From the IMG/VR virus record IMGVR_UViG_3300035204_000233, positions 1-28,023 of that record: DNA of 28,023 nucleotides; one strand, given 5' to 3'. Every line of letters begins with the position of its first letter. The first letter of the stretch is position 1. Made by a program: the position numbers and the translations under genes. This stretch comes from a virus. A model generated the notes under the pieces. The model searched no databases and had not been told where the DNA came from. It worked only from the letters and a program-made list of their open reading frames with translations. Shown in pieces: positions 1,680-20,134 of this stretch.

Positions 1680-2602
1680 TGCCTCTAGGATTCGCACGCA
1701 ACGCCGGTCTAATCGCCGCAGGCGGCGGTTCTAGCGTCAACGCTACTTGGTCCGGTCAGACCTCTGACTGGCAGTCCGGCACCTACCAGTTTGTTAAATG
1801 GAACGGCAGCGGCAACTTGACGGTTATTTCAAACGGTGCTGGTCTTTGCGACGTAATCATCGTCGGAGGTGGTGCCGGTGCCCGCTATCCGGGGAACGGT
1901 CCTTACGGTGCGGGTGGGGGCGGGGCAGGTAACTGCCGTCACCTCATCGGCTGCAACCTACCTGTCGGATCGCACACCATTAGCGTAGGTGCCGGTAACT
2001 CCCCGCCCTCCCATTCAAACGGAGGCCAGTCCGAACTCCCCGCAGTCTTCAACTCTGGTACCAGTTGGTCGCCCGCGTCGGGCATAATTTACTCTTGGGG
2101 CGGTGGGATAGGTGCCCACTGGCCTTACGGTGGCCCGAACGCTGGTGGTTGCGGCGGCGGCGGCGACGGACAGTATACTAACGGAGCAGCGGGGAACCAA
2201 CCGGCCTTGAGTCCGCAGTGCGGCTACGACGGTGGCGCCGGATCGTACCAAGCAAACTACGGCTACTACGGTGGCGGTGGTGGCGGCGGCAGTCAGAGTG
2301 CTGGGGCGCCCCATCCCTACTACATGACTTATATGGCTGGTGGCACCGTTTCACAAGGCGGGCAGGGGCGGTCCTACACGGCGTTCCGCGACGGCGCAGG
2401 ACCGGGCGGTGCAGGGTATGAGTATTTTGCGGCTGGTGGCGGAGGGTATATCACCCCCGGCTGGTACGGCAGCACAGCCGGTGGTACCCAGTACGGGTCC
2501 AGCCCCGGAGCAGCCGGTACGGCTGGTTCAGGTTCTGGCGGATCAGGAGCGAACAACATCGCAGGTGGAAGTGGCACCATTATCATCCGCTGGCCGCTAT
2601 AG
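1679..2602 (+). CDS. Glycine-rich tail adhesin-like protein
   Basis: 307 residues from the ATG that overlaps the previous stop. The same frame is open further upstream (ATG at 1535), but that start would overlap the fibre gene by 145 bases and lacks support. After a short N-terminus (MPLGFARNAGLIAAGGGSS) comes a Trp/Ser segment, then a core with many Gly runs (DVIIVGGGAGAR, GAGGGGAG, YGGGGGGG), ending GGSGTIIIRWPL. I recognise this layout, an IIVGGGAG entry and a GSGTIIIR exit, from Gly-rich domains at the ends of phage tail proteins. Polyglycine helices form the receptor-binding tip in some phage adhesins. A host-recognition role is therefore likely, probably as partner of the preceding fibre. 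The Shine-Dalgarno is weak, consistent with coupling. The Gly runs lie on GGN-repeat DNA that may be prone to slippage. Confidence 0.75.
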   Translation: MPLGFARNAGLIAAGGGSSVNATWSGQTSDWQSGTYQFVKWNGSGNLTVISNGAGLCDVIIVGGGAGARYPGNGPYGAGGGGAGNCRHLIGCNLPVGSHTISVGAGNSPPSHSNGGQSELPAVFNSGTSWSPASGIIYSWGGGIGAHWPYGGPNAGGCGGGGDGQYTNGAAGNQPALSPQCGYDGGAGSYQANYGYYGGGGGGGSQSAGAPHPYYMTYMAGGTVSQGGQGRSYTAFRDGAGPGGAGYEYFAAGGGGYITPGWYGSTAGGTQYGSSPGAAGTAGSGSGGSGANNIAGGSGTIIIRWPL

Positions 2603-2611
2603 TCTCCACAT

Positions 2612-3298
2612 ATGGGATTTGGATTTTCTGTTGACCCTGACACAACCGGGTTTAACAAGCACGCCGAGGCGGGGCTGCGGCCTATCAGATCGCCTGAGGA
2701 AGCGTTTATGGAACCCAAGTATGAGATCCTGCACAACCCTCTGACGGATGAGTATTACGAACTGAAGGACTGGGTGACGGCTGATGAGATCACCTTCACC
2801 CGACAGGGGTATACGGGGTTGCAGGACGAAGTTCTGATGCCGTACAACTATCTGGAATTGTTCGGGCACACCCTTCTAGGCAGGCCGGTCTTTGAGGTAG
2901 GTGAAGAATACCGGGCGGGGCGTGAGGACTCACCGAAGCGTGAACTGGCAGCAACGGTTGTTCAGCAGATCGGGCACGCCAACGGGTTTGAGCCTGAAAT
3001 ATACCGGATGAACATCAACCTTACGAAATGCACCAAGGCGGCAAGGTCGATTATTCACAGAGACCACGACTTCGATCATTGGAACATGATCATCTACCTG
3101 TCTACCTTCCACGGTGGGCGGACCTACGTTGACAACGAACCCTGCCCGGAACCGAAAGAAGACCTAATCATCACCTTTGAGGGCAAGGACACCCTCCATT
3201 GGCATGAGCCTCCTGAGGGGATCGATGACAACCGGTTCATTTTGATAGCCACCTACATGCCGAGGGAAATCGATTCATTGGAGCGTCATCTTGGATAA
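2612..3298 (+). CDS. 2-oxoglutarate/Fe(II)-dependent oxygenase 1
   Basis: 228 residues. The C-terminal half fits the double-stranded beta-helix oxygenase pattern: an H-x-D iron motif at H149-R150-D151, the strand WNMIIYLSTF, a Gly-rich turn FHGGRTYV, a distal histidine at H198 (LHWHEPP) and R208 ten residues later for 2-oxoglutarate. Such enzymes couple decarboxylation of 2-oxoglutarate to hydroxylation of a protein, nucleic acid or small molecule; the substrate cannot be read. It is the first of three adjacent oxygenases and nine bases after the Gly-rich gene. The start is uncertain: ATG 2612 has no clear Shine-Dalgarno, while ATG 2708 has GAGGA at 2696-2700 and would give 196 residues. The upstream segment still looks coding, so the longer form is listed. 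Confidence 0.75.
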   Translation: MGFGFSVDPDTTGFNKHAEAGLRPIRSPEEAFMEPKYEILHNPLTDEYYELKDWVTADEITFTRQGYTGLQDEVLMPYNYLELFGHTLLGRPVFEVGEEYRAGREDSPKRELAATVVQQIGHANGFEPEIYRMNINLTKCTKAARSIIHRDHDFDHWNMIIYLSTFHGGRTYVDNEPCPEPKEDLIITFEGKDTLHWHEPPEGIDDNRFILIATYMPREIDSLERHLG

Positions 3299-4052
3299 GG
3301 TTAAGGAAGCGCAGTACCGTCACAATAAGAAGGAGGGGATGGGGCCGTGGAGCGGCAACATGCCCGCTTCGACCAAGGTCACCGACCCCACCGAATATCA
3401 GGGCGAGAACTTTGGGGATATCGAAGAACTCTTTCCGACCCTCATCTACTTCACGTTGCCGGGTAGGAAGGCCGCGATAAAGAAAGAGATCGATGATTAC
3501 TTCCCGCAACTGACTTTTCAGTACGCTAACGAGCGGGGGGGGTGGACGGGAAACTGGGGGCGGACACACCAGATCAATATCCCTGATGGGGACGAAAGTT
3601 TCTTCCAGCAGAACATCTTGGCGCATTTCCCGGTGCTGTCGGAAACGATTAACGACCACATCCACTGGTACTTGCGAGTATTGGGGACATGGAACCCGGA
3701 TCTGCCCAAACGGACATACGACATAGCGTCATGGATGACTGCCATGAATAAGGGCGATTATGTGCATGAACACATGCACGGAGCCGCTGATCTGGCGGGG
3801 GTGTTCTACTACAGGACGGACGGCCAGAAGAGCGTCAAGTTGGATTTCCACCCACCACAGATGATGGAATACGACCCCCTGATGGCTAACGTCTCCGCCG
3901 GTTGGGACCATCCAGCCGTTGAGGGCAAGTTGTTGATCTTCCCAGCGTGGCTGCGGCACTCTACGGTAAGATCCGAAGAGGACGATGTTAGATACGCCAT
4001 CTCTTTCAATATCCTATTTAACGATGGTTCCGTGAGAAAGGTGACCCCATGA
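3291..4052 (+). CDS. 2-oxoglutarate/Fe(II)-dependent oxygenase 2 (TIGR02466-like)
   Basis: 253 residues from a TTG. The pattern SWMTAMNKGDYVHEHMH, then LAGVFYY, a G-K-L-L-I-F-P-A-W-L-R-H block (H223) and VRYAISFN (R234) matches my memory of the TIGR02466 group of putative 2OG-Fe(II) oxygenases, common in phages. Iron would be held by the H159/H161/H163 cluster and H223, with R234 contacting 2-oxoglutarate. The substrate is unknown. TTG 3291 is chosen because GGAG at 3280-3283 lies seven bases before it and it overlaps the previous stop by eight bases. ATG 3339 follows AAGGAGG too closely (two bases), and ATG 3360 is also in frame. It ends ATGA with the third oxygenase, so the three are probably made together. 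Confidence 0.75.
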   Translation: MDKVKEAQYRHNKKEGMGPWSGNMPASTKVTDPTEYQGENFGDIEELFPTLIYFTLPGRKAAIKKEIDDYFPQLTFQYANERGGWTGNWGRTHQINIPDGDESFFQQNILAHFPVLSETINDHIHWYLRVLGTWNPDLPKRTYDIASWMTAMNKGDYVHEHMHGAADLAGVFYYRTDGQKSVKLDFHPPQMMEYDPLMANVSAGWDHPAVEGKLLIFPAWLRHSTVRSEEDDVRYAISFNILFNDGSVRKVTP

Positions 4053-4699
4053 TCGAAGACGACATTGTATGGGTAGACAACTTTATGATGCAGACTTACA
4101 TGGCGAAAGAGTTGCTGCCCTTTCTGGATGACATGATCGCTGATATAGAAAAGAGCAACCGTTGGCTACCGGCAATGCACGGAAGCGGAGAACAGAAAAA
4201 AGATGTAAGAGATTCGGACATCATCTGGTACAGCACCGATATGCCGCCTCCAACCCATGAACCGGTCTTAGCACACCTAAAACTAGTTTTCGATAAATAT
4301 CTTGAAGCGAAGCCTTTGATAACGGAGGGTGACGTACCCAGTTTCTACGCATACGACTACAGCATTTGTCGATACAAGCCGGGGCAGGCTTACCACAGCA
4401 CACACAGCGATGCGGCTACTTGGCTGAACAATTCTCCGATGGGCCAGAGGTATCTGACACAGATTCTCTATCTGAATACCTGTGAGGGCGGCGAAACCAA
4501 CTTCCCCAATCAGGATGTTAGTATCAAACCGGTTGCCGGTAAGTGCGTAACGCACCCGCCGTGGTGGACTCACTGTCACAACACTTCCCCAGCGATTGAC
4601 ACCAAATACACCTTGATTGTCTTCTACGCCTTTGGCACTTCACAATCGCCTTCTTCTTCGTCTAACATGACGGTCGAAGACTTTATCGCTGGAGGCTGA
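4049..4699 (+). CDS. 2-oxoglutarate/Fe(II)-dependent oxygenase 3 (prolyl-4-hydroxylase-like)
   Basis: 216 residues. The catalytic half reads as a prolyl-4-hydroxylase-type fold: YSICRYKPGQAY before the H-x-D motif H119-S120-D121, the strand RYLTQILYLN, the turn CEGGETNFP, then PVAGKCVTHPP, a distal histidine (H177 in CHNTSP, or H175) and K186 nine residues later in the usual 2-oxoglutarate lysine position. The GGETxFP turn and the terminal Lys, rather than Arg, separate it from the two preceding oxygenases. A hydroxylase acting on a peptide or protein is likely; the substrate is unknown. The ATG overlaps the previous stop (ATGA). By eye the first 300 bases are more A+T-rich than their neighbours, which may hint at separate acquisition. 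The C-terminus is Ser-rich. Confidence 0.8.
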   Translation: MIEDDIVWVDNFMMQTYMAKELLPFLDDMIADIEKSNRWLPAMHGSGEQKKDVRDSDIIWYSTDMPPPTHEPVLAHLKLVFDKYLEAKPLITEGDVPSFYAYDYSICRYKPGQAYHSTHSDAATWLNNSPMGQRYLTQILYLNTCEGGETNFPNQDVSIKPVAGKCVTHPPWWTHCHNTSPAIDTKYTLIVFYAFGTSQSPSSSSNMTVEDFIAGG

Positions 4700-4701
4700 C
4701 G

Positions 4702-5250
4702 TTGGCTCACTACGCACGTTTAAATGCAGATAACGTGGTTGTCTTTGTTACGCCTCTTTCCGATGAAGTTTCCTTAACTGACGGCGTTGATGACGAGGCC
4801 AAGTCTATTGCCTATTTGGAGTCGCTGTTCGACACCGACGACACTTGGGTCCGCACATCGTACAACGACAACATCCGAGGCCACTACGCTGGGGTAGGGG
4901 AAACCTACGACCCGGTTAACGACATCTTTGTTAGCCCCCCATCGGAACATCCTTCGTGGATTCTGGACACGACCACAGGACTATATGAGGCTCCTGTACC
5001 GGAGGTCAGTGGTTACGATTGGAATGAAGACACCGGGGCTTGGGAGCAGCCACCGAAGCCCGAAGACTTCCCATCGTTTACTTGGCAGACGACATGGCAG
5101 GCCGATGGACGGGAGCGCCCCAACGGGTGCTGGTCACCACCGGTAGCCCACCCCGGCACCTACACATACACGGATGATGGTGCGAGGATCTACACCGAAC
5201 CCTATTTTAAATGGGATGAGGCGACACTCTCTTGGCTTGAAGAAACCTAA
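4702..5250 (+). CDS. Phage structural-type protein with Trp motifs
   Basis: 182 residues starting at TTG, set by a perfect GGAGG at 4691-4695 six bases upstream; no nearby in-frame ATG fits. The sequence MAHYARLNADNVVVFV at the start, WVRTSYNDNIRGHYAGVGETYDP in the middle and aromatic closing motifs (PSWILD about 84, YDWNEDTGAW about 105, FKWDEATLSWLEE about 169) are a combination I remember from small conserved proteins of marine phages, where they lie near tail genes. Function is not established; a tail-fibre-associated or assembly role is a guess from context. Three short W-centred motifs suggest small repeated beta modules. Its TAA overlaps the next ATG (TAATG). Confidence 0.65.
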   Translation: MAHYARLNADNVVVFVTPLSDEVSLTDGVDDEAKSIAYLESLFDTDDTWVRTSYNDNIRGHYAGVGETYDPVNDIFVSPPSEHPSWILDTTTGLYEAPVPEVSGYDWNEDTGAWEQPPKPEDFPSFTWQTTWQADGRERPNGCWSPPVAHPGTYTYTDDGARIYTEPYFKWDEATLSWLEET

Positions 5251-5881: not shown

Positions 5882-6193
5882 ATGCCTATTTACGATAAGG
5901 GGGATCAGGTTCGGATAACGGCCACATTCACCTCCGATAGTGTCAATACTGACCCGACGGATGACGCAGCCGATGTTGAGGTTCGGCATCGACGCCCTTC
6001 ACGCAAGGATGTGAACGGTGTCGCAGGTCAGGACACCTACCCGACCGCCACTAAGACCGCTACCGGGGTCTACTACGCGGATATATTACTTGACGAAGAA
6101 GGCGTGCATACAGTCCGTGTTAAGGGACTGGAAGGCGTTGTTGCCGCAGATATTGTTGAGTTACAGGTAGCGCACTCTGTGTTTGCCGATTAA
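5882..6193 (+). CDS. Small Ig/beta-sandwich-like virion protein
   Basis: 103 residues. The order of features (YDKGDQVRITATF at the start, a DPTDDAADVEVRHRRPS segment, GVYYADILLDEEGVHTVRVKG, then an alternating V/A/E ending) matches small beta-sandwich proteins that I recall from phage structural modules. No catalytic residues are seen. A head- or tail-decorating role is inferred from its neighbours only. AGGAGG at 5872-5877, four bases before the ATG, overlaps the previous stop and is one of the best ribosome sites in the window, so this protein may be made in high amounts. The terminase gene follows after 13 bases. Confidence 0.65.
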   Translation: MPIYDKGDQVRITATFTSDSVNTDPTDDAADVEVRHRRPSRKDVNGVAGQDTYPTATKTATGVYYADILLDEEGVHTVRVKGLEGVVAADIVELQVAHSVFAD

Positions 6194-6206
6194 TCCACCA
6201 CGGCCC

Positions 6207-7925
6207 ATGACTGATACTGCGGCAGAGCAGCATGGCGGCAACGTCAGCAAAGTCAAGGGCCAGAAGACCCGCGAATTGTTCCTTGAAGGACTCGCGGAGC
6301 ACGGCACTATCTCCAAGGCTTGCCTTATAGCCGGTGTCACACGGTCGGCGTACGATAAGTGGCGTCAACGTATCCCTGAATTTAGTGAACGCGCCGACGC
6401 CATCAGAGAGAAGGCTCTCCGTGACGGTGGCAAAGAGGACTGGGACGGCACGTTTCAGAGTTTCCGAAGTAAGTATTTCGGTCATCTCTCCCCGTGGTTC
6501 CATATCAAAGCCATCGAAGCCTACGAGAACACGCCACCCGGTAACGTCACCCTGATCCTGTGGCCTCCTGAACACGGCAAAACTACGCTTGCCGAGGATT
6601 ACTTCTGCTTCAAACTGGCTACCAACCCCGAGTTCAGGATCACCGTCGGATCTGAGGGACAGGACATGGCCCGTAAGATTCTTGGACGGATTCGTTCTCG
6701 TATGGAACCTCAAGGCCCCTACCCCCGTTATGTAGCAAAGTATGGTCCGTTCGTCCCCCAGAACCAGTCAGGGCGTAAGACTGCACAGCCGTGGGGCGCT
6801 GATTACTTTAGCGTATACAAGAAGAGCAGGCATGATGAGCGCGACTATTCGATGGTTTCACTGGGTTGGCGATCCAAGATTGCTGGTACCCGAACCGACC
6901 ACCTACATATTGATGATATTCAGTCAAGGGTTTCTCTCAATCTGACCGAACAGATGTTCGAGATTTTCCGGCAGGACTGGTTGACCCGTCCCGGCGAGCA
7001 GGGCCGGACGAGCATCAACGGTACCCGTGTCGGTGAGGACGACTTCTACGAGCGGGTGATGGAGCAGATCGATGGGGACATTCTCAGGGTGATTAAGTTC
7101 CCGGCGATTGTCACAGATGAGAAGGGCGAACCGGAACCGTTGTGGCCGGAGATGTTCTCATTGGAATCGTTGGATCGTATTCGCAGGAAGGTCGGTGAGG
7201 AGGCGTGGTCCCGTAACTATATGCAGGAACCTAGTTCCTCTGCCGCCGCGACCTTTGACGAGAAGTCTATTCAGAAGTGTCTGAATCCGTTGAGGTCGGT
7301 GAACCATGAACCCCCCAAAGATTGTTCTGTGTATATTGGCGTTGATCCCGCTCTTGGCTCTAACAATTGTGTTATTGCTGCTACACCGCATGAAGGAAAA
7401 CTTAAAATCCTTTTTGTTCGGGAAGACGTAGGGCTGACTCGTAATGAACAGATCCTCGGTATCGTGGAGGATGCTGTGCTCCAATGCGGCAGGAACGGCA
7501 GCAGCGTGTCGGATGTCATCATCGAAGCGATGGTGTTCCAGAAGGGGCTGTCCCGTGATGAGCGCCTAATCGAGATGACGCAGCGGTACGGTTTCAGGGT
7601 CAGGGAACATCTCACAGGGATGAACAAATACGATGAAACGATTGGTGTTCCGTCGATGGCGTTGTCGTTTATGCGCGGCGAGATTGACATTCCGTATGCG
7701 GATGACCCTTCGACACGCCACCAAGCAGACCAGTTAATCCGCCAGTTGAAGGCGTGGCGTCCGATGAAGCGCGGAACGAAACTTCGGCAGGATCAGGTCA
7801 TGGCATTGTGGTTTATTTGGATCCTTTGGCGACAGCGTAAACAGTCGTTTGATGTGGACACTTCACAGTTTAACTTTGGTGGACTACCGTGGGGATCAAG
7901 TGTGCCCGTCAGACAGGTGTTTTGA
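6207..7925 (+). CDS. terL: Terminase large subunit with N-terminal helix-turn-helix domain
   Basis: 572 residues from the ATG (580 if the in-frame TTG at 6183 is used; neither has a clear ribosome site). It is the ATP-driven DNA-packaging motor and nuclease that docks on the portal. Residues about 15-70 form a helix-turn-helix-like region (FLEGLAEHGTISKACLIAGV, then AYDKWRQRIPEF) resembling small-terminase DNA-binding domains. The ATPase follows with Walker A PPEHGKTT (120-127, Lys125) and Walker B HLHIDDI (Asp236/Asp237). The RNase H-like nuclease shows GVDPA (Asp380), VIIEAM (Glu440) and RQDQVMALW (Asp529). All key residues are present, so it should be active. No separate small terminase gene is seen in the window. 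Its TGA overlaps the portal start (TGATG). Confidence 0.93.
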   Translation: MTDTAAEQHGGNVSKVKGQKTRELFLEGLAEHGTISKACLIAGVTRSAYDKWRQRIPEFSERADAIREKALRDGGKEDWDGTFQSFRSKYFGHLSPWFHIKAIEAYENTPPGNVTLILWPPEHGKTTLAEDYFCFKLATNPEFRITVGSEGQDMARKILGRIRSRMEPQGPYPRYVAKYGPFVPQNQSGRKTAQPWGADYFSVYKKSRHDERDYSMVSLGWRSKIAGTRTDHLHIDDIQSRVSLNLTEQMFEIFRQDWLTRPGEQGRTSINGTRVGEDDFYERVMEQIDGDILRVIKFPAIVTDEKGEPEPLWPEMFSLESLDRIRRKVGEEAWSRNYMQEPSSSAAATFDEKSIQKCLNPLRSVNHEPPKDCSVYIGVDPALGSNNCVIAATPHEGKLKILFVREDVGLTRNEQILGIVEDAVLQCGRNGSSVSDVIIEAMVFQKGLSRDERLIEMTQRYGFRVREHLTGMNKYDETIGVPSMALSFMRGEIDIPYADDPSTRHQADQLIRQLKAWRPMKRGTKLRQDQVMALWFIWILWRQRKQSFDVDTSQFNFGGLPWGSSVPVRQVF

Positions 7926-9745: not shown

Positions 9746-10122
9746 TGGTCCGAGCAAAGAAAACATTAGATACCCCAAGGGTGCAGCAGCGCGAAACGCC
9801 CTCTTTGGAGGCTGGTGCTTCTTACGGCGAGGTTGGTGAGAACCGGGCGGCGATAAACGCGATCCCCATCGACGGGAAGCCTCCTGTCGGACAGGCTGAG
9901 GCTCCAGCCTTTAAACCTGCCCCTCAGGGTAATCCGTTGGAGGCGGCAGCGGCATATACCCCTACGGTTACGCCGTTGACGGCGCCGGGTGCAGGGGGTC
10001 GGGTCAGGCCCCAACGCCCAATGGTTACCCCTGATGAGGAAACGGCTCAGACATTGACTAACTGGTATGAAGCCACGGGCGAACAGCGTTTCTTGGACGC
10101 TGCGATACAACTGAGTCAATAG
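9745..10122 (+). CDS. Small Pro/Ala-rich protein between portal and giant protein
   Basis: 125 residues, acidic overall, with low-complexity Pro/Ala/Gly content from 40 to 95 (for example AEAPAFKPAPQGNPLEAAAA) and a short helical end (ETAQTLTNWYEATGEQRFLDAAIQLSQ). No family is recognised. Its place between portal and virion proteins would fit a scaffold, head-completion or chaperone-type protein, but it is shorter than usual scaffolds and has no long coiled coil. It is not a capsid protein. Both ends overlap neighbours (TAATG in, TAGTG out), so it is made in step with the portal and the giant protein. Confidence 0.65.
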   Translation: MVRAKKTLDTPRVQQRETPSLEAGASYGEVGENRAAINAIPIDGKPPVGQAEAPAFKPAPQGNPLEAAAAYTPTVTPLTAPGAGGRVRPQRPMVTPDEETAQTLTNWYEATGEQRFLDAAIQLSQ

Positions 10123-13100
10123 TGGCTGAACGCTCTGGGCTTCGGCGGGCAACGAATACGATTAGCACTGCGCCGCTATCGTCGTTTAACGACGAATGGT
10201 ACGGGCGTAGGATGCAGTTGCTCATGCGTAATGGTGCGAGCCGGTTCTTGGAAAGCACGCCTGAAAGTCTTATGGTGTTGGCGCAGAGCAGCAAGTCTGA
10301 TGGCGACATGCTGGATGAGTTCCTGCGTGCGTATAACCAATCTGAGTTTAATCAGATGCGGCATACCTTCGAAGCGATGCCGGATCAAATCCAGTTAGCG
10401 GAGTTCAACCGGCTGGCAGAACCGACCCAGCAGATTCTCCTGAGCGGTGGATACGAGCCGCCGAATGAGGAGAAGAAGTCGCTGGTTAGACGGATGCTGA
10501 CATGGGATATCCCACTCCTCCCTGAAGAACACATGGGTTCGGTGATAGCGGCTGGCATGGCCCCGATCCGGATGATGGGTTTCTTCGCAGGCAAGACCGC
10601 TAGCGCCTTGTGGGAGGGCGGGGTGATGAAGCCATCCCGGTTCGCTACACGCTTGGGCCGGTCTGGTGCCTATCTTGCCGAGAAGGGGTTGGGTTCCTTC
10701 GCTGACCCTCGTGATTGGCGGGAATCATGGAATGAAACAAAGATAGAAGAAAACTCCTATTACTCCGGAACCGTCAAGAAAGCCGAACGGCTTGTTGGCC
10801 GTCACCAGACGCGGCTACTACGGGCCTATCTGGAAGGTGGACAACAGGCCGTATACGACCTGATACTGAAAGAGGGGCAGAAGAACGGCCTTACTGAAGA
10901 GAGGGCCGGAATCTACTGGCGCAATTGGCAATCGACACTGAGTGAAGAAAGTAATGTCAAGGCACTAGAGATTCTTGAGTCGGGGAAACTCACCCTTTTT
11001 GATGCGTCCCAACGCGCATTTAATACAGTGTCGCCTTGGGATGTGAACCCTGATAGTTGGCAAGGCAAGTCTGTCGGCATGGTTGGGGCACTGGCTACTG
11101 AGATTCTGTTGGACCCGACGACATGGGGCGGTGGTGCGCTCTTCAAGATTGCCAAGCATGCGAAGGTTGGGATGCGTGCAGGCATGACAGCAGATGCCAT
11201 CCATTTCTCTGAACGGCTGTCTAAGGCCCTCCGGGCAGAAGCCAAAGATACGGGCCTATTCGCACCAATCAGAATTTGGAATCCGACTACCGGCCAGTTC
11301 GATGACGCTCTCAGCGAGGTTAAGGAATGGGTCGCTAAGGGTGGGGTCGGTAGCAGTGGATCACTCACTCAGGGCAATGTCCCAATTGGGCGTGGTAGGA
11401 GGCTGATTAGAAGCGGCGCTCAGTATCTAGCCCAAACGAATCCGATGCTTCGTGCCCAGCACAGGTCTATTAACCGGTTGATTGATCGGGTTAACGCTGC
11501 ATTTAAGAAGCAGGATGAAATAGATGAGTTCAGCCGTGCGTTCAGGGCTGCGAACCCCGATGAGAACGTGCACAAGGCTGTCATGGAAGAGTTCGGTACC
11601 GACACTGGTCTAGGCCAGTTGATGCGCGATGTACCCGCGATGGCCCCGATCATCGGTGATATGTGGAATTGGCATCTGATGAGGCGGAGGATGAGTCTCA
11701 CGGTAGATGCACGGCATATCGACGGTAACGGCATGTGGAGGGTCCACGATAGCGAAGGCAAGTTGCTGGGTGAGGCTCGCGTCAAGGGCGATCCAAGCAA
11801 CCCGATGCTGGAAGACGATGCGGTATTCACCAATGAAGGCGTGCGGGTTGTCAAGCACAACGGTGAATCAGTTGATTTCCAGACCAGAACATTCCCGACA
11901 TTAGCGACAGAGCAGGGCTTCTGGGACTTCCTTAAATCCCAGACAGGTTGGGAGATGCTGGCCTCCAAGGTGGGGGCAGTTGACCCGGATGCCATCTTCA
12001 TACCACGGATGAGCAAGTTCGGAGAGAAGTGGGCTGACGGCAAGAGGTACGTTAAGAATGAGATACTTAGTTTCGATAATCTAGAAACAGAAGTCGTCGC
12101 TGATCTCGCACGCGGTGCTGCAAAATGGCTAGTGGATCAGGGCGAATATATCCATGTTGGGCTTAGGCGACGGATCGATGAAGGGGCGCTTGAACTCAGC
12201 AATGATATAGATGATCTCGGTCTCCAGTCGGTACTGGACGATCCGTCTATCAGCAACGCGCGGCGGCACGGCTTAGGTGAAACGGATCTAGCGAAGATCG
12301 AAGAGGCCCGCCTTGAGTTGGAACCAGAAGCCATACGGCACATTCTAGATAACGGGGAGATGGACCCCCTTCTCATGTTCCATCAGGGCAAAGGCATAGA
12401 GATTATCGACGGGGTACCCGTCCAAGATGTATGGGAAATACCATTCGCAGGGGTGCGTCGTGCACGCAAGAACTATTGGGAAGGTCAGATCCATAAGGCG
12501 GGTGGAGCCAACGCTGAACTTGACTGGTGGGTCAGGACCGGCATGATCGCTAAGACAGCCGTAGCGACACTGGCTTATTATCCGGCCCGTTTCGCGGAGA
12601 AACTAGTTACCTATGTCCCGAAGGCAGCCCACATAGATGTAAGCGACACCCAGTTGGCGCTTGCGGAATTCCAAGGGCTAGTCGATATGGGCATCATGGT
12701 GGATATGCCACGCACCCAGATCGACAACTATCTGCGTGCGTACACGATGGGTACCGATGCCGAGAAATGGCTAGTCACTACAGAGTTCTATTTGGATTTC
12801 CTTGGTCGGTCGGGTGTATTGATGCACGGCGGATCAGATGTCCAACGCTTTGTTGAACGGTTCATCCGGCAGGGGGCGCACAGGTACGGCAACATCGTTG
12901 ACGACATGGTTGGGCTTCCTGCTCTTGGCGGGCTGCATGTCCGTAAGGCCATCATGCCCGGTGAGGCATATGCGGCACAGTTGGCGCGGGCCAATGTCAT
13001 ACCCAACTATCGGGAACTAGGGGCTGTAGCAAAGTATATGTCCTTCTACCGAAGGCTCGGCTGGGGGCTGCATCTCCCAGCCGTTGACAGCCTTCTTGCC

Positions 13101-16100
13101 AGAACATGGCGTCCTGCTGTTCTGCTCCGCATGGGGTATGTGGTTCGTAACGGTGGGGAAGAGTTGTTCACATGGATGATGAGGGAAGGCCCATCGCATT
13201 ATGGGAAGCAGAAACTAGCCAAGGTCGCAGCCGACTTTCACCCTTCATGGGATGCATACGGCAGAAAGACACTGGTTAAGGGATCGAAACTGCCCGACGA
13301 GGAGCGTCTACCCCTCCTGTGGAAGCCTATCTCTGGGATATGGCGGTCATTCAATGAGATCGCCGGGGTCGGTGACTATGCCATCTTCCGGAAGTCGCTC
13401 TTGGAGGTCGTTGAGAAGAACAAGGATAGGTGGGCGGCTCTATTGGAGGACAGCCCAGAGTTGGCCTTTAAGTTGTTCGAGGACACCCATGAGGCTGTGA
13501 AACTGCGGACGGGTCGTACCGTATTGGGGAAGACCTCTAAGCGGCTATTCGAGTTTTCTAATGCAAAGGCTAATGAACTCTCACTTATAGCGCGAGATGC
13601 GTTCGGTCGCATACCGGGTATGCCTACCCGGCAGGGGATCGCTAACCGGGTACTCACTAAGGTAGCGAAGAACCACGAAGAGCGTGTCGCTGCTGTCGCT
13701 GCCTCTCTTACTATCCCCACCTTGCTGGATGCCCAGATGAGGGACGTTCTGGGAACCTTTGATAATTATCTCAACTACAGCAAGAACACTATGGATGATG
13801 CGCTGCGGCAGGGGACCAACGTTACCTCTGTAGACCGGCTGCTAAAGATGACGGTCGATTACCAGAACACAGAACTGGCGTGGGTATCCAATGAGCCGGG
13901 TAGTGAGATGGGTCTTGTCCGCAAGTCGCAGGCAGTCGCGCAAAGACTAGCAATGCACTCTGATGACATATTCGCTCGCGCATACTTAAACGAAATAATC
14001 AACTATGTCTCGCCACGGATCAGGCAGGAACTCACTGCTACCGCTGAAGGTCTAAGCCTCGCTGCCCTGACCGGCGGTTCCCCTGATGAAGTACGCCGCA
14101 TGCGTACTCTGCTCGCGGACAAATCACCAGAGCAAATCGTTCTACTCCTCGCACAAGAGCATCCGGATGCCTTGGACACACTGCGACTGGCATTTGATCG
14201 GGTCGGCCCCGGTGCTTACTTCGACGAGGCGGGCGACTTGGTTGTCACCGATATGCCGTTTGAGGCCGGATGGCCGGATGCTGTCGATGACTTCATTGAA
14301 GCGATGCCCGAAGCGCAGCGTGATCTCTGGCGGAACCTATTAGACCCGGAGGTTGGTGGGCAGAAGGTCGGCGCTGATGTCAACATCGTTGCCTTTCTGC
14401 TTGGTCAGTCGGATGCCGCTCGGTTGACCGACGACTGGGATGAGGTTGTCCGGCGTGGACGGCTGGCGTACGTCAACCGGGTGATGACCCCTGATGGTCA
14501 GGATATTCTTCGGACGGTTCACCGGTCGAACGCAGGGTTCGCTGCCTTGGGCGGCAAGGCCAGTGAAATTCTGCCGCCCGGTGCTACACGCCTGTTTGTC
14601 CCAATGATCCCAGTGGAATACAGGGAAACTCTAGTTGAGATGCTTGCAGAAGGACGGGCCGGGGAGGGCTGGTTTGGCGAGGTCGTGGACCTTCTCACAG
14701 CAAAGTTCAAGGATATAGGTTACGGGGAAGTAGAGGCATTGAAGGCGGCGCGTATGTTGCAGCCGTCGTACGGGCCGGGAAGCACGGGGCTGACCGCAAG
14801 TTCCCTAGTGGCTAATGCGAACCTATGGCAAGAGGTGGGGGAGGGTTTCTTCCCAGTCGTAGTTGGTAGCGCCAACCCCAAGGTGGCGCACATCATATCG
14901 CAAGTCTTGGAAGAGGTCTTGGCCGCACGGACGGCTACCCGATATCGGTATGTCGGGAGAGGGCACCGTATCGGCTCTGGACGTATCCACACGATGGATG
15001 TGAATAGTGAGGAACTGTGGAACGCCCCCGGTCTAGCAGCAGCGAATAGGCCAGCCGAACTTGATGTAACCGTTGTCAGGAATGCAGTCGGGTCGCGCAC
15101 AGCGCATCAGGATATGGCTACGGCTTTGGGCGGCGAATATATGAACTCCTACTACGGATGGGGTAGCGAGGGGGCGACGACAGCACGGGACTTTGGGCCA
15201 CGAGGGCTACGCGATGAGCCTGTGATTGGTATTGCTGCACAACATCTGATATCTCCACGCCCCGGTGGTCTTTCACCTGTGGCTATGCTAGACGGCGAGC
15301 CTGTCACCCATATGACCCGGTACTACAGGCATCCGACAAGCGGTGAGTTTGTTGTATTGAGGCACGGTCGTGAACCCTCTGACGACTGGTTCCTTGATTA
15401 CGAGTTGGTAGAGGAGCAGATCACAACGGGGAACGATCTTCAGGATATGGCCGAGGAACTGGCTTATCTGAACTCCTTCGAATTGAACGACTTGATTGGC
15501 ACAGGCAGCAGACAGGACCACACGGAGGTCTTTCATCCGTGGCTTCGTGAGGTTCTTATGCCGCATGAAGTCAGCACTGTTCGAGTTGCTGCCTATGCCA
15601 GCAGGGCTAGGTGGTGGTCTAACGCCCCTGAGAACATTCTTGCATTTATGCCGGTCACGGAAGAGGGCGGCAAAGTAGGGGAGAAGATTAGCAAAGCGTG
15701 GACATCGATTCTACGCAACTGGTTCGATGGGGTAGTCAACCCGATGATTGGGGCGATGGTCCGTGAACCTTTGTTCCAGCATTATCTAACTATAGGTAAA
15801 GAGCAGACAGTCGGGGTCCGACGGATCTACCACCGGCCCAAGATTGAACGGCGGGCACCGGGGGGGAAGGGCGTATGGGAAGAGGTTCCGTATAATTACA
15901 GGCTCTACGATTCTCTTGGTATCGGGTACATAGATGGGGACGCCCAGTATGTCATTGATGAACTAGAAGGGTTTATCGAATTCGACTGGCCGTTGGCTAA
16001 AGCCGATCCGGAGGCTGCCGCTTCCCAGTTGGCTTCCGCTATTGAGGTGAGAAGCCCATTCGCCACTATCAAAGCGATAGATAAGATTATCGCAGAGGGG

Positions 16101-18020
16101 GATACCCCTGCCGATGTCGCTAATGCGTTGAAGAGAGTTAAGCGCATCATGCAGGATTCAACGTCAGCGAATCCAACAGTTGTCGCAGCAAGAGAGAGAT
16201 TGCAGAACGAGTTCTTTGGTTGGGCGCTGCATCGCAAGGTCATGGCAGACAGTCATCGTGACATAGCCGCCCGTCGGGCTATGACTCTGACCAGCGCATT
16301 CATCGATGACCATCGCATCCGTTCACAGTTTCAGCAGATGGTCGGTACAGTCGTACCGTTCTGGTTCGCTGAAGATAACTTCCTACGCCGTATCGGACGC
16401 AGCCTGAAGCACAACCCGTTGATGTTCCGTAACCTCCACCTGACGATGAACGCTGGGGTATACAGCGGCATCGTTCAGGAGGACCAGTTCGGAGAGAAGA
16501 AACTTGTTATCCCCGGCAGCGAAGTCGGCGTTCATGCGATGCTGTCGATAGCGGACAAGACTCCCATTGTCAACAGCGTCTTTGGTGGTGACCTTGGTTC
16601 GGTGCAGCGCCCCGGTATGGGTCTTGCAATGAACATCCATGTTATCCCCGGTTACGATCTGGACTCAATCGGACAGTTGGGCTTGGGTCCGCTACTCGCT
16701 GCCCCGATCAACTTTGCTTCAGGTCGTGACGCTGAGATCCGGAAAACGTTTGAACATAACCTTGTCGGGGGTCGGTATCCGGGTGCTAGCAAACTGAGCA
16801 CGGGTGCGGGCGGGACAATATCTAACGTCTTCGAAGCAGCGTGGTCGTCGGTAGCGCCCGCATTGGTTGTTAGGGCTATCTCGTTGGCAGGTATCGACGG
16901 CCCGAATGGCGAGGCCCGCGCCAAAGCAAAGGTTGATGTGCTCAAGTTCATGGCGATGCATGGATCCATCCCTGACGAACAGGAGATCGCATCTCATTCC
17001 AACCCAGCGTTGTATGAGGAATGGTTCCTAGAGGATGTAGATCAGATGGCTCGCCAATACCAGTTGTTGCAGGCGATGTCGTGGTTCTTTGGTCCGGCTA
17101 CTGGCAACTTGGCTGATCTGACCTTGCATGAGAATTGGGAATGGAACCAAGAGTTCCATGAGTTGTTGGAGATGGGGATTCCTTATGAGGAGGCGTACCC
17201 GCAGTGGGTCAAGAACGTGGAGGCCCGCACAGGGGAGAAGTTCGATCCGATAGAACACTCGCCGTTCAGGACTTCCGGCCAGTCCAAGATCCCGTTCGCA
17301 GTGTTGGAGACTACACAGGACGCTAATAAGTGGTTGGTGGACAATGACGCCTTTGCCCGTGACTTCACTATGTCCTCAGCGTTCTTCATGCCCCGCAAGT
17401 TCGATGTGGAGGACGATGAGTATGTGGCGGAGGCCAAGCAGCGTCAGTTGAACATGGGGTTGCGTAAGATGGATACCCCTGAAGAATTCTTATCTGAGTT
17501 GTATTTCAATATCTCCTATCCCGTTTACCACAAACGGCGTGTCACTTATATGACACGGAGGAACGCGATGCGGTCCATGAACATGGACACTACAGAGTTG
17601 GATGAGAAATGGGATCTGTGGTATGCGTCGTTCCAGATGCAGCACCCTGTGTTTGTCAACCAGATCACTACTGGTACCGCTCGGATCAAACGAGATTCTA
17701 CTGTTAATGAATTCAGGCTGCTTATCGAATCGCCGGAACTGGTGCCTGAGGGGTTGCACCGAACAGACATTCTCAATGCGATGGCTACCATCGTTGGGTT
17801 CTCAGACAAGATGGACAGTCTCAAAGGGCAGTCAGACCCTATGGCGAGGGCGAAGCGTGATGCCCTTCGGTACCAATACAGCCGTATTATGGAGGAGTTT
17901 GTCCATAACAAGCCTTGGTTGAATGAACTATATTACAGTGTATTCCTGCCTATCATCGGGGAGAGTTGGATTGCGAAGCATAAGGCTGGGCTGGTCAGCA
18001 TCGACATGGGTGTGATATGA
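10122..18020 (+). CDS. Giant 2632-residue protein, probable virion-internal/ejection protein
   Basis: An uninterrupted 7.9 kb gene starting at GTG within TAGTG (10120-10124). The protein is mostly soluble-looking and helical with beta insertions (about 520-605 and 1560-1810); no signal peptide, RNA-polymerase, lysozyme or protease signature is seen. Residues about 2065-2133 (RIRSQFQQMVG, VVPFWFAEDNFLRRIGR, then LHLTMNAGVYSG) resemble a segment I recall from very large proteins of uncultured and actinobacterial phages. Those are probable virion proteins; that match needs checking. Size, position behind the portal and four large coupled partners suggest a head-internal or DNA-ejection protein, like the large internal proteins of podoviruses. 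A tape measure is less likely, given the folded-looking domains and the lack of tail-tube genes. It ends ATGA with the next gene. Confidence 0.85.
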   Translation: MAERSGLRRATNTISTAPLSSFNDEWYGRRMQLLMRNGASRFLESTPESLMVLAQSSKSDGDMLDEFLRAYNQSEFNQMRHTFEAMPDQIQLAEFNRLAEPTQQILLSGGYEPPNEEKKSLVRRMLTWDIPLLPEEHMGSVIAAGMAPIRMMGFFAGKTASALWEGGVMKPSRFATRLGRSGAYLAEKGLGSFADPRDWRESWNETKIEENSYYSGTVKKAERLVGRHQTRLLRAYLEGGQQAVYDLILKEGQKNGLTEERAGIYWRNWQSTLSEESNVKALEILESGKLTLFDASQRAFNTVSPWDVNPDSWQGKSVGMVGALATEILLDPTTWGGGALFKIAKHAKVGMRAGMTADAIHFSERLSKALRAEAKDTGLFAPIRIWNPTTGQFDDALSEVKEWVAKGGVGSSGSLTQGNVPIGRGRRLIRSGAQYLAQTNPMLRAQHRSINRLIDRVNAAFKKQDEIDEFSRAFRAANPDENVHKAVMEEFGTDTGLGQLMRDVPAMAPIIGDMWNWHLMRRRMSLTVDARHIDGNGMWRVHDSEGKLLGEARVKGDPSNPMLEDDAVFTNEGVRVVKHNGESVDFQTRTFPTLATEQGFWDFLKSQTGWEMLASKVGAVDPDAIFIPRMSKFGEKWADGKRYVKNEILSFDNLETEVVADLARGAAKWLVDQGEYIHVGLRRRIDEGALELSNDIDDLGLQSVLDDPSISNARRHGLGETDLAKIEEARLELEPEAIRHILDNGEMDPLLMFHQGKGIEIIDGVPVQDVWEIPFAGVRRARKNYWEGQIHKAGGANAELDWWVRTGMIAKTAVATLAYYPARFAEKLVTYVPKAAHIDVSDTQLALAEFQGLVDMGIMVDMPRTQIDNYLRAYTMGTDAEKWLVTTEFYLDFLGRSGVLMHGGSDVQRFVERFIRQGAHRYGNIVDDMVGLPALGGLHVRKAIMPGEAYAAQLARANVIPNYRELGAVAKYMSFYRRLGWGLHLPAVDSLLARTWRPAVLLRMGYVVRNGGEELFTWMMREGPSHYGKQKLAKVAADFHPSWDAYGRKTLVKGSKLPDEERLPLLWKPISGIWRSFNEIAGVGDYAIFRKSLLEVVEKNKDRWAALLEDSPELAFKLFEDTHEAVKLRTGRTVLGKTSKRLFEFSNAKANELSLIARDAFGRIPGMPTRQGIANRVLTKVAKNHEERVAAVAASLTIPTLLDAQMRDVLGTFDNYLNYSKNTMDDALRQGTNVTSVDRLLKMTVDYQNTELAWVSNEPGSEMGLVRKSQAVAQRLAMHSDDIFARAYLNEIINYVSPRIRQELTATAEGLSLAALTGGSPDEVRRMRTLLADKSPEQIVLLLAQEHPDALDTLRLAFDRVGPGAYFDEAGDLVVTDMPFEAGWPDAVDDFIEAMPEAQRDLWRNLLDPEVGGQKVGADVNIVAFLLGQSDAARLTDDWDEVVRRGRLAYVNRVMTPDGQDILRTVHRSNAGFAALGGKASEILPPGATRLFVPMIPVEYRETLVEMLAEGRAGEGWFGEVVDLLTAKFKDIGYGEVEALKAARMLQPSYGPGSTGLTASSLVANANLWQEVGEGFFPVVVGSANPKVAHIISQVLEEVLAARTATRYRYVGRGHRIGSGRIHTMDVNSEELWNAPGLAAANRPAELDVTVVRNAVGSRTAHQDMATALGGEYMNSYYGWGSEGATTARDFGPRGLRDEPVIGIAAQHLISPRPGGLSPVAMLDGEPVTHMTRYYRHPTSGEFVVLRHGREPSDDWFLDYELVEEQITTGNDLQDMAEELAYLNSFELNDLIGTGSRQDHTEVFHPWLREVLMPHEVSTVRVAAYASRARWWSNAPENILAFMPVTEEGGKVGEKISKAWTSILRNWFDGVVNPMIGAMVREPLFQHYLTIGKEQTVGVRRIYHRPKIERRAPGGKGVWEEVPYNYRLYDSLGIGYIDGDAQYVIDELEGFIEFDWPLAKADPEAAASQLASAIEVRSPFATIKAIDKIIAEGDTPADVANALKRVKRIMQDSTSANPTVVAARERLQNEFFGWALHRKVMADSHRDIAARRAMTLTSAFIDDHRIRSQFQQMVGTVVPFWFAEDNFLRRIGRSLKHNPLMFRNLHLTMNAGVYSGIVQEDQFGEKKLVIPGSEVGVHAMLSIADKTPIVNSVFGGDLGSVQRPGMGLAMNIHVIPGYDLDSIGQLGLGPLLAAPINFASGRDAEIRKTFEHNLVGGRYPGASKLSTGAGGTISNVFEAAWSSVAPALVVRAISLAGIDGPNGEARAKAKVDVLKFMAMHGSIPDEQEIASHSNPALYEEWFLEDVDQMARQYQLLQAMSWFFGPATGNLADLTLHENWEWNQEFHELLEMGIPYEEAYPQWVKNVEARTGEKFDPIEHSPFRTSGQSKIPFAVLETTQDANKWLVDNDAFARDFTMSSAFFMPRKFDVEDDEYVAEAKQRQLNMGLRKMDTPEEFLSELYFNISYPVYHKRRVTYMTRRNAMRSMNMDTTELDEKWDLWYASFQMQHPVFVNQITTGTARIKRDSTVNEFRLLIESPELVPEGLHRTDILNAMATIVGFSDKMDSLKGQSDPMARAKRDALRYQYSRIMEEFVHNKPWLNELYYSVFLPIIGESWIAKHKAGLVSIDMGVI

Positions 18021-20134
18021 CCGACATCTTTGTAGAGCAGCCTGAAGAAGAACTGATCAGTAGCCTTACCCCCGACGAGAGGGATCCTCTCATCCCGTCC
18101 GGGGTCGGGGAATACGTCGATGATGTCGGTCAGGTTATAGATGAAATCTTTAGTTCTGGTTGGTGGGGCGACAACTATGTGACTCAGGTCGGGAAGGTAG
18201 CGACAACTCTTAGGGATTTCGTCCAACGAGAGGGCACGTTCGCTCCCCCCGAAGAAGAAGAGCCGACAACGGAAGACCGGAAAGCCCAGCGAGCGCAGGA
18301 GATAATGCCAGCAGGGGCGACCCCTGAGGACCAAGGCACTTCTGCTGGCCTATCTGCTTTAAAGACGCTGCACTTCGAACAGATGACGGGCGAGTCGGCC
18401 TTCGTGAAGTTTATTAACTGGCTTAGGAAAAGTGGCGTTACCACGCTTTCGCGTGAAGGCGCCGGTATCGGCAGGTCAGCCATCTACGAACCGGATGGCA
18501 GGGTCACCCCTGCATTCCAAGGTGATACGAGCAATAAACCCACTGCTGAAGTTCTTAGTTTCGATACTGAAGCAGGCCAAAAGCAGATACTTGATTACCT
18601 GCGAGCCGATTGGCGCAACATCCCTGACCTTGTTGAAGCAGTCCAACAGAAGATCGCTGACAACTGGTCAACGTTTATGGCCGGTGTTGTCGATGGTAAG
18701 AAGCCGGGGACTTTAGATAGTGCGGAAGCGGATCCTGCCCTGTTCGGTGAACTGATGCGACAGTTCGGTGGGTACGGAGATGGCACCACACTATTGGTGG
18801 ATGTTGATGATGCGTTTGGTGGGGGGTCAGCAGCGGACATTCTAGGTGGGACGCTGGACGCCGCTATCACAGAATACGCAGCGGCTCTGAGTAAACAGAA
18901 CCCGTCCATGCTTGTCGGCCCTGAAATCGGAGGAGAGGGCAAGGTCGGATTCATCACATCGTTTGATGGCACACCTTACGGAGATATCAGATCGGTCAAT
19001 GATCTATTCTCTGGTGGCAAGATCGGCCCGATGGACGCCTATAGGTATATGAAGGCGTTGTATAACAACACTAGAGACGCCTCCGGCTACTCCCCCATCA
19101 TCGATCAGATCCAACAGGAGTTGTTCGCATGGGGGATATTGGAACCCACTGACACATTCGTATGGGGCCATCTAGATATACCCGGTATGGAGGGTACGGC
19201 TGACCGGACTATTGATGCGCTACAAATGTTCCAAGTAGACATTATCAATGAGGCGTTGGCTGTGCCGGAGAGCGAACTGGATACTGACGCTACGGCTTAT
19301 ATCGATACGGTGATGCGGAACCTCCTCAGCCGGAATGTCAATACTGGTGAACTACAGGACAACCAAGCCTTTAAGCAGCAAGAGAAGGTGATCAAGCAGA
19401 TATCACAGAAGATCCAGACAAGGATCTCTAATAACCCTAATCGGTTGATAACCGATCAGGGCGTTAGGGAGTTGGAAGCGACGATCACGGAGATGATGGG
19501 AGAACTTGGGTCCGAGCAGCGAGAAAAGTATTTTGGCCGGGGCGGCTCCGCGAAGCAGCAGCAGTTGGTGGATTTGTTGATGTCTGACTTCTACGGAGAC
19601 AGCGATTGGGGTTCGCAGATTTACTTCGGTAGTCGGAACAGCGACGATGATTTTATGAGGTATGCCAGTAGGGCCGGGGCATTAACTGAGAATGAGGTTT
19701 CTTTGTTGGAGCGGGGCATGATGCGGCCCGATAACTACAGAGATAACTGGGATCCGAACGATGTGATGGCATTACAGCATGCTGAAAAGGATGTGGTCAC
19801 TGCGAATCTTGTCAAGTTCATCACTGATAACGGGGGCTGGGAGGACGCCAACGCTCTTCGTAAGGGGTTGATTACCTATGCCCACACCATCGGCCAGCGC
19901 ACCGCCTCTGAACGTGGGTACAGCAATGAGGACTACGGTCGTATGGTACAGAAGGCTATGCAGGCGGCGGTTGGTGCCCCAGCGGAATCAGAGTTGGTTA
20001 CTACGTTGGATGAGAGGCTTGCACAGTCGATGGATCTGGTCGGTGGTGAGGGCGCTCCCGACTTCCGGCGCTTGATGGATTCGGTTAATAACCGTCGTAA
20101 GAGTTTGAATACGTTGAGAGTGAGAAACGTATGA
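18017..20134 (+). CDS. Large protein of unknown function (705 aa), giant-cassette member
   Basis: 705 residues, acidic, with an N-terminal disordered Glu/Pro stretch (about 75-95, APPEEEEPTTEDRK). Mixed helical segments follow, including DAYRYMKALYNNT and SPIIDQIQQELFAWGI around 345-390, a polar helical stretch about 455-520 and a basic C-terminus. No catalytic motif or known fold is recognised. It is coupled at both ends by ATGA-type overlaps and is likely co-assembled with the 2632-residue protein, perhaps as a second internal virion protein. No good Shine-Dalgarno precedes the start, which supports coupling and leaves ATG 18017 as the natural start. Confidence 0.8.
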   Translation: MTDIFVEQPEEELISSLTPDERDPLIPSGVGEYVDDVGQVIDEIFSSGWWGDNYVTQVGKVATTLRDFVQREGTFAPPEEEEPTTEDRKAQRAQEIMPAGATPEDQGTSAGLSALKTLHFEQMTGESAFVKFINWLRKSGVTTLSREGAGIGRSAIYEPDGRVTPAFQGDTSNKPTAEVLSFDTEAGQKQILDYLRADWRNIPDLVEAVQQKIADNWSTFMAGVVDGKKPGTLDSAEADPALFGELMRQFGGYGDGTTLLVDVDDAFGGGSAADILGGTLDAAITEYAAALSKQNPSMLVGPEIGGEGKVGFITSFDGTPYGDIRSVNDLFSGGKIGPMDAYRYMKALYNNTRDASGYSPIIDQIQQELFAWGILEPTDTFVWGHLDIPGMEGTADRTIDALQMFQVDIINEALAVPESELDTDATAYIDTVMRNLLSRNVNTGELQDNQAFKQQEKVIKQISQKIQTRISNNPNRLITDQGVRELEATITEMMGELGSEQREKYFGRGGSAKQQQLVDLLMSDFYGDSDWGSQIYFGSRNSDDDFMRYASRAGALTENEVSLLERGMMRPDNYRDNWDPNDVMALQHAEKDVVTANLVKFITDNGGWEDANALRKGLITYAHTIGQRTASERGYSNEDYGRMVQKAMQAAVGAPAESELVTTLDERLAQSMDLVGGEGAPDFRRLMDSVNNRRKSLNTLRVRNV

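Follow-up and report, generated by a model that had tools for sequence, protein, structure and literature searches.

The window analysed here is the 28,023-base virus record IMGVR_UViG_3300035204_000233 of IMG/VR, probably a fragment of the genome of an uncultured marine tailed phage. On the + strand, it carries in order a gp80-like gene, a repeat-bearing fibre gene, a glycine-rich adhesin gene, oxygenase genes 1, 2, and 3, a phrog_7759 gene, two small genes, the terminase and portal genes, and an open reading frame (ORF) of 2,632 residues. The features relevant to the analysis are the following.

458-853, + strand: Gp80-like (podophage GP4 fibre I) structural gene (PF23140, 1.1e-38)
864-1679, + strand: tail-fibre gene with GN/DxTG repeats (phrog_9017 tail fibre, 1.8e-21)
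1679-2602, + strand: glycine-rich adhesin, predicted receptor-binding tip and proposed substrate (phrog_2295, 7.5e-9)
1713-5247, + strand: block of adhesin, oxygenase, and phrog_7759 genes that is exchanged as a unit (DNA comparison with related contig L008)
2612-3298, + strand: oxygenase 1 (gene 1), phrog_274 family, HRD/H/R ligands, prolyl-hydroxylase/AspH-like predicted fold
3291-4052, + strand: oxygenase 2 (gene 2), PF13759, HxH/H/R ligands, relative of 3bvc and 2rg4, TTG start
4049-4699, + strand: oxygenase 3 (gene 3), PF13640, prolyl-4-hydroxylase-like, HSD/H/K ligands, constant member of the cassette
4702-5250, + strand: phrog_7759 protein, TTG start (phrog_7759, 1e-32)
6183-7925, + strand: terminase large subunit (TerL), backbone marker (phrog_38, 1.8e-49)

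On its left the fibre locus is bounded by the conserved Gp80-like gene, which is 87% identical in DNA to that of L008 across the gene. The GN/DxTG tail-fibre gene is kept in oxygenase-positive and oxygenase-negative relatives alike. The adhesin, for which the ATG at 1679 was chosen as the start (the ORF list opens at a TTG at 1535), contains 27-30% glycine and 5.9% proline; its match to PF21722 (Gly_rich_2, 9.9e-4) falls under the family cut-off. The phrog_7759 protein has a conserved N-terminal domain and a variable C-terminal end of Trp/Pro-rich repeats that finish in a WDEDTTSWV-like motif, and it is a constant partner of glycine-rich adhesins across many marine phages. Elsewhere in the window, the ORFs at 10122-18020 (2,632 residues) and 20131-24246 (1,371 residues) have no Pfam or PHROG match, and a tblastn search of the phage collection with the N-terminal 1,126 residues of the former gave no hit. 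No relative of the window TerL was found in genome_contigs, and no isolate TerL exceeds 28% identity to it.

The three oxygenases

The preliminary description had reported three adjacent Fe(II)/2-oxoglutarate (2OG) oxygenases with recognizable ligands that are not recent duplicates of one another. Both points hold. The named ligands are present and conserved in relatives, the BLASTP E value is 0.036 or worse for each pair, and no profile match connects the three families. The genes follow one another on the + strand with overlaps of 4-8 bases, which suggests a single transcript. Their GC content (0.49-0.54) is similar to that of neighbouring genes.

Gene 1 has no Pfam match and is placed in phrog_274 by profile search (1e-19). 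Its ligands, H149-x-D151, H196, and R208, are invariant in 12 relatives. The best structural matches to its AF2 model (pLDDT 76, core >90) are all 2OG oxygenases with a double-stranded beta-helix fold, with Z scores of 15.1 to 6n1f, 13-14 to human PHD2, and 12.4 to AspH; 4iw3 and AlkB (Z 12.4-12.7) are also among the matches. By this model, gene 1 is an Fe(II)/2OG oxygenase fold closest to protein hydroxylases, including prolyl hydroxylases. The predicted fold with its iron ligands is not that of an endonuclease V, as the PHROG label of phrog_274 would have it, and that name appears to be an annotation error. A short gene-1 relative (in L043) touches an aspartyl/asparaginyl hydroxylase profile with an E value of 0.0011, under the cut-off. 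The member of phrog_2297 ("DNA endonuclease") in cyanophage S-RSM4 is also a PF13640 protein. Families 274 and 2297 therefore both appear, by fold or by Pfam, to consist of 2OG oxygenases rather than endonucleases, and cyanophage denV counts probably tally oxygenases.

Gene 2 matches PF13759 (2OG-FeII_Oxy_5) with an E value of 2.8e-14 and 53.7 bits against a cut-off of 27. The TIGR02466-like character ascribed to it earlier is borne out as a resemblance, with the H-x-H...H...R pattern, and stops short of membership, the score being 50.4 bits against a cut-off of 62.5. Its ligands, H161-x-H163, H223, and R234, are conserved in relatives. In all of them the triad is H-x-H...H, without the carboxylate of the canonical 2-His-1-carboxylate arrangement; alignment to 3bvc and 2rg4 reveals the same histidines and no carboxylate in these PDB relatives. 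Structure prediction of the active sites, which was informative for gene 1, gave a model with a pLDDT of only 35 for gene 2. Gene 3 matches PF13640 (1.4e-8, 36 bits against a cut-off of 27), with ligands H119-x-D121, H177, and K186, the last position being K or R in relatives. Its relatives of known structure are prolyl 4-hydroxylases (P4Hs) from bacteria and algae (5c5t, 3itq, 5hv0). By sequence, gene 3 is a P4H-like enzyme nearest to peptidyl P4Hs. It may hydroxylate peptidyl proline, for which the proline content of the adhesins offers indirect support.

Conservation and exchange of the oxygenase block

A search with TerL yielded 80 related marine contigs. The full trio recurs in five of them (L002, L057, L062, L063, L064), and a sixth, L003, is cut within gene 1. 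Because of this recurrence, a chance origin of the trio is excluded. Genes 1 and 3 occur without gene 2 in L004, L007, L008, L009, L010, and L043, and gene 3 occurs alone in L023, L032, L045, and L056. Among the contigs that show a fibre gene upstream of the terminase, 12 of 36 carry oxygenases, and in the TerL relatives these lie only between the fibre genes and TerL. Whole-contig searches, in contigs of up to 47 kb, found none outside the fibre locus, and six relatives whose fibre locus lacks oxygenases have none anywhere in the contig. In a dereplicated set of contigs with the adhesin, gene 3 occurs alone in 16, with gene 1 in seven, and with both genes 1 and 2 in three; gene 1 or gene 2 never occurs there without gene 3. 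This count is biased to gene 3, as many of the contigs were fetched by a gene-3 search, and the terminase-based survey gives the same nesting. Such nesting fits stepwise action on one target, as had been suggested, although an order of steps cannot be derived from it.

The DNA comparison with L008 delimits what is exchanged. Identity is 87% up to position 1713 and 82% from position 5247, with no similarity in between, and the dissimilar stretch comprises the adhesin, the oxygenases, and the phrog_7759 gene. Contigs L023 and L027 have identical TerL proteins and differ in the same block, with an oxygenase present in one and absent from the other. Mapped most simply on the TerL tree, oxygenase presence requires 10 changes, at least 6 of them on supported branches. 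On the adhesin tree, it requires 1 to 3, a figure to be read with caution, as proteins so repetitive do not give reliable trees and there may have been as few as one independent origin. The oxygenases follow the adhesin type, not the phage backbone. The link to fibre genes proposed in the preliminary description is thus strong, the lineage's oxygenases being confined to the fibre locus and exchanged together with the adhesin. With oxygenases and adhesin in one hypervariable block, the locus belongs among the oxygenase-bearing host-recognition islands of marine phages.

Two gene orders are found, namely adhesin, gene 1, (gene 2), gene 3, phrog_7759 gene, and adhesin, phrog_7759 gene, gene 3, phrog_2954 gene. 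The phrog_2954 gene, named "ferrochelatase", nearly always follows gene 3 in the latter order (L045:5328-5900, L056:4343-4915, and many others). Another family named ferrochelatase, phrog_3531, partly matches a 2OG domain, and phrog_2954 may be misnamed. Other enzyme genes occur at related loci. A PF04820 tryptophan halogenase-like gene (8.6e-32) directly follows gene 3 at L043:7915-9045, with a homologue in L010; in L012 and L013, a relative of gene 3 has a halogenase-like gene nearby. PF13469 sulfotransferase genes lie in the same fibre loci at L059:647-1486 and in L021 and L164, in the last case flanked by the phrog_7759 gene and gene 3. Modifying enzymes of several kinds may reside in this variable locus. 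Two tandem adhesin modules are present in the fibre loci of L071, L084, L085, L153, and L166, an arrangement in keeping with phages that bear two receptor-binding tips.

The statement that such enzymes occur singly in phages proved wrong, as runs of three to seven are found in S-RSM4, S-B64, S-CAM8, P-RSM4, S-MS29, and HTVC008M. S-RSM4 has at least five annotated or profile-matched oxygenases in a run shortly after a tail fibre. Four lie in a row, or nearly so, in S-B64, S-CAM8, S-MS29, and HTVC008M, and P-RSM4 and S-SSM5 have runs of three. One to five oxygenases were reported in 14 of 16 cyanophages by Sullivan et al. in 2010 (PMC3037559), and published counts reach 24 per genome (PMC9602691). 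Fe(II) oxygenases were already listed in a 2014 study of marine-phage host-recognition islands (PMC3909814). Since both runs and island oxygenases were previously known, the trio itself is a further example of them and not a new kind of arrangement.

Proline content of the adhesins

The composition of the adhesin differs with the presence of oxygenases. Adhesins encoded beside oxygenases contain 5.3-8.9% proline (n = 11), as compared to 1.3-4.6% for those without (n = 15), a complete separation (p 2e-5). Proline was first spotted post hoc in a scan of residue composition. A test of all 20 residues, on adhesins less than 80% identical, then identified it as the strongest separator, and a replication followed. 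In contigs fetched later, 14 adhesins with oxygenases average 7.3% proline and 5 without average 1.8% (p 1.7e-4); two low values among the 14 are the second adhesins of L153 and L166, which do not lie beside gene 3. Each of these contigs has two adhesin modules. The module with gene 3 contains 9.3% proline in L153 and 9.7% in L166, and the other contains 2.9 and 2.0-2.2%, respectively. No proline difference was observed in the TerL, fibre, or phrog_7759 proteins of the same phages, and gp80 proteins show a small one (p 0.008). The GC content of the genes and flanks does not explain the difference, and the adhesin prolines share no strict sequence motif. Two other candidate targets were rejected. 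The counts of GN/DxTG fibre repeats do not separate loci with oxygenases from those without, and the proline content of the phrog_7759 protein is equal in both groups.

Cultured and complete phages were examined using phrog_7759 as the anchor, which does not select for oxygenases, with 14 loci taken first and seven held out. The 21 phages with an adhesin include S-RSM4; the Greip locus, fetched without an adhesin, was left out. Mean adhesin proline is 4.7-7.4% in the 10 phages with a PF13640 oxygenase near the adhesin and 1.4-3.7% in the 11 without, under a rule narrowed to PF13640-type enzymes only after the exceptions MW202483 and DSL-LC04 were seen. These two phages have only phrog_81-type enzymes and proline-poor adhesins, which points to a proline link that belongs to gene 3 rather than gene 2. 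When any oxygenase is counted, the association is weaker but persists (p 3.3e-4), and p values in this set ignore kinship, seven of the ten PF13640-positive phages being Kyanoviridae. In HTVC023P, one proline-poor ORF (L226 9387-10313) adjoins a phrog_81-type oxygenase. Melnitz, which is assigned to the family of HTVC008M, has proline-poor adhesins and no oxygenase close to them. A rule based on any PF13640 gene in the genome fails for this phage, whose enzymes lie at least 26 kb from the adhesin, whereas the adjacency rule holds.

Shared ancestry could explain part or much of this covariation, because the adhesin tree allows for as few as one to three origins of the trait. In a phylogenetic sign test on the TerL tree, all independent pairs are concordant, and with four on supported branches they are too few for significance.

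Proposed function and relation to known systems

The oxygenases adjoin the adhesin and travel with it, and the adhesins they partner are proline-rich; the phage therefore probably hydroxylates its own tail tip. As the best single explanation, to which we give an even chance, the substrate of gene 3 is proline in the adjacent adhesin, and genes 1 and 2 play an accessory modifying role in a host-recognition cassette. We infer the catalytic activity, substrate, timing, and benefit that this explanation contains. The three enzymes would be protein hydroxylases of the late module. Gene 3 would act on the glycine-rich adhesin encoded just upstream, in the same transcript region, using iron, oxygen, and 2-oxoglutarate in the infected cell, either ahead of assembly or in the course of it. 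Further residues, of the same adhesin or of a neighbouring tail protein, could be hydroxylated by genes 1 and 2. Hydroxyproline might stiffen glycine-rich helices or loops or provide hydrogen-bonding groups for receptor contact, so that receptor-binding loops would be stiffened or chemically diversified. Among the targets suggested in the preliminary description, DNA bases are disfavoured; adhesin prolines, which it did not name, are now a concrete candidate.

The same cassette could act on another target, such as a host ribosomal protein, EF-Tu, or another tail protein, and hitchhike with a proline-rich type of adhesin. EF-Tu is a substrate of cellular relatives with the same fold, the structural matches of gene 1 include 4iw3, linkage in one block would by itself explain joint exchange, and independent origins on the adhesin tree are few. 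We nevertheless consider this unlikely, given that only the gene-3 module is proline-rich in contigs with two adhesins and that the same association appears in unrelated phage families. Modification of cell-surface or virion glycans, which would aid adsorption or exclude rival phages, is less probable still. It is in keeping with the gene-2 homologue of P-SSM2, which sits amid glycosyltransferases and nucleotide-sugar epimerases, and with the sulfotransferases and halogenase at related loci. However, neither the window nor the surveyed cassettes yielded an identifiable glycosyltransferase, peptidyl P4Hs are the enzymes closest to gene 3, and proline covariation is not among the predictions of a glycan model.

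Two further functions seem very improbable. As auxiliary metabolic genes, the oxygenases would draw down 2-oxoglutarate or supply succinate and thereby reset host nitrogen signalling, as proposed for the cyanobacterial hosts of cyanophages (PMC3037559); such a role would not lead one to expect oxygenases restricted to the fibre locus, their joint exchange with the adhesin, or proline covariation. As slight a chance attaches to enzymes of DNA or nucleotides that serve in repair or base modification. The phrog_274 label, the AlkB matches of gene 1, and a phrog_274 homologue beside replication genes in S-CAM9 would fit this role, but protein hydroxylases are the closest structural matches to the gene 1 model, gene 3 resembles P4Hs, and the trio is located among virion genes in a cassette exchanged with the adhesin. 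For DNA-base modification as such, we found nothing in favour beyond the PHROG label.

More broadly, and somewhat more tentatively than for the window itself, we propose that adhesin-modification cassettes are widespread in marine phages, each pairing a Gly/Pro-rich tip with its own prolyl hydroxylase, here joined by two further oxygenases, to yield loops of hydroxylated residues. On this view the oxygenases would serve to mature the adhesin and would not be auxiliary metabolic genes. Genes for 2OG oxygenases, which rank with the commonest unexplained genes of marine phages, are mostly filed under auxiliary metabolism, with two PHROG families filed as DNA endonucleases. If oxygenases do mature the adhesin, many annotations would shift from host metabolism to host recognition, and the supply of iron and oxygen would bear on phage host range. 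Such phages would also be a source of prolyl hydroxylases that are compatible with bacterial cells and act on non-collagen, glycine-rich proteins. Full-text literature searches, in which few subscription journals were covered, returned no account of a phage adhesin that contains hydroxyproline.

Several known systems resemble parts of this locus. The metaviromic islands of marine phages, which are hypervariable host-recognition regions, count Fe(II)-dependent oxygenases among their frequent genes, as here; the available text of that work proposes no substrate (PMC3909814), and our analysis adds a measured exchange block and proline covariation. The P4H of PBCV-1 and collagen-type P4Hs have the PF13640-type fold and the ligands, including the lysine, in common with gene 3, and action on a virus-encoded structural protein is possible for both the PBCV-1 enzyme and gene 3. 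The window adhesin is not a Gly-X-Y collagen, unlike the substrate of collagen-type P4Hs, and PBCV-1 is a eukaryotic virus whose virions reportedly lack hydroxyproline despite the viral P4H (PMC7019647, reference 162). The gp38 adhesins of T2-like phages and S16 are glycine-rich receptor-binding tips with variable loops, as is predicted for the window adhesin, whose sequence similarity extends to phrog_2295/PF21722 only. The available text on gp38-type adhesins mentions no oxygenase partner (PMC12892980), whereas three adjoin the adhesin here. The closest parallels are the runs of cyanomyoviruses and pelagiphages (S-RSM4, S-CAM8, P-RSM4, HTVC008M, HTVC023P), in which several unrelated oxygenases are likewise consecutive and adjoin a glycine-rich adhesin (phrog_2295) and a phrog_7759 gene. 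These runs often include the phrog_2954 "ferrochelatase" gene, which the window lacks, and the window backbone differs from that of the cultured phages, its TerL being at most 28% identical to those of isolates. Unlike the cultured runs, that of the window consists of exactly phrog_274, PF13759, and PF13640 genes, placed between the adhesin and the phrog_7759 gene.
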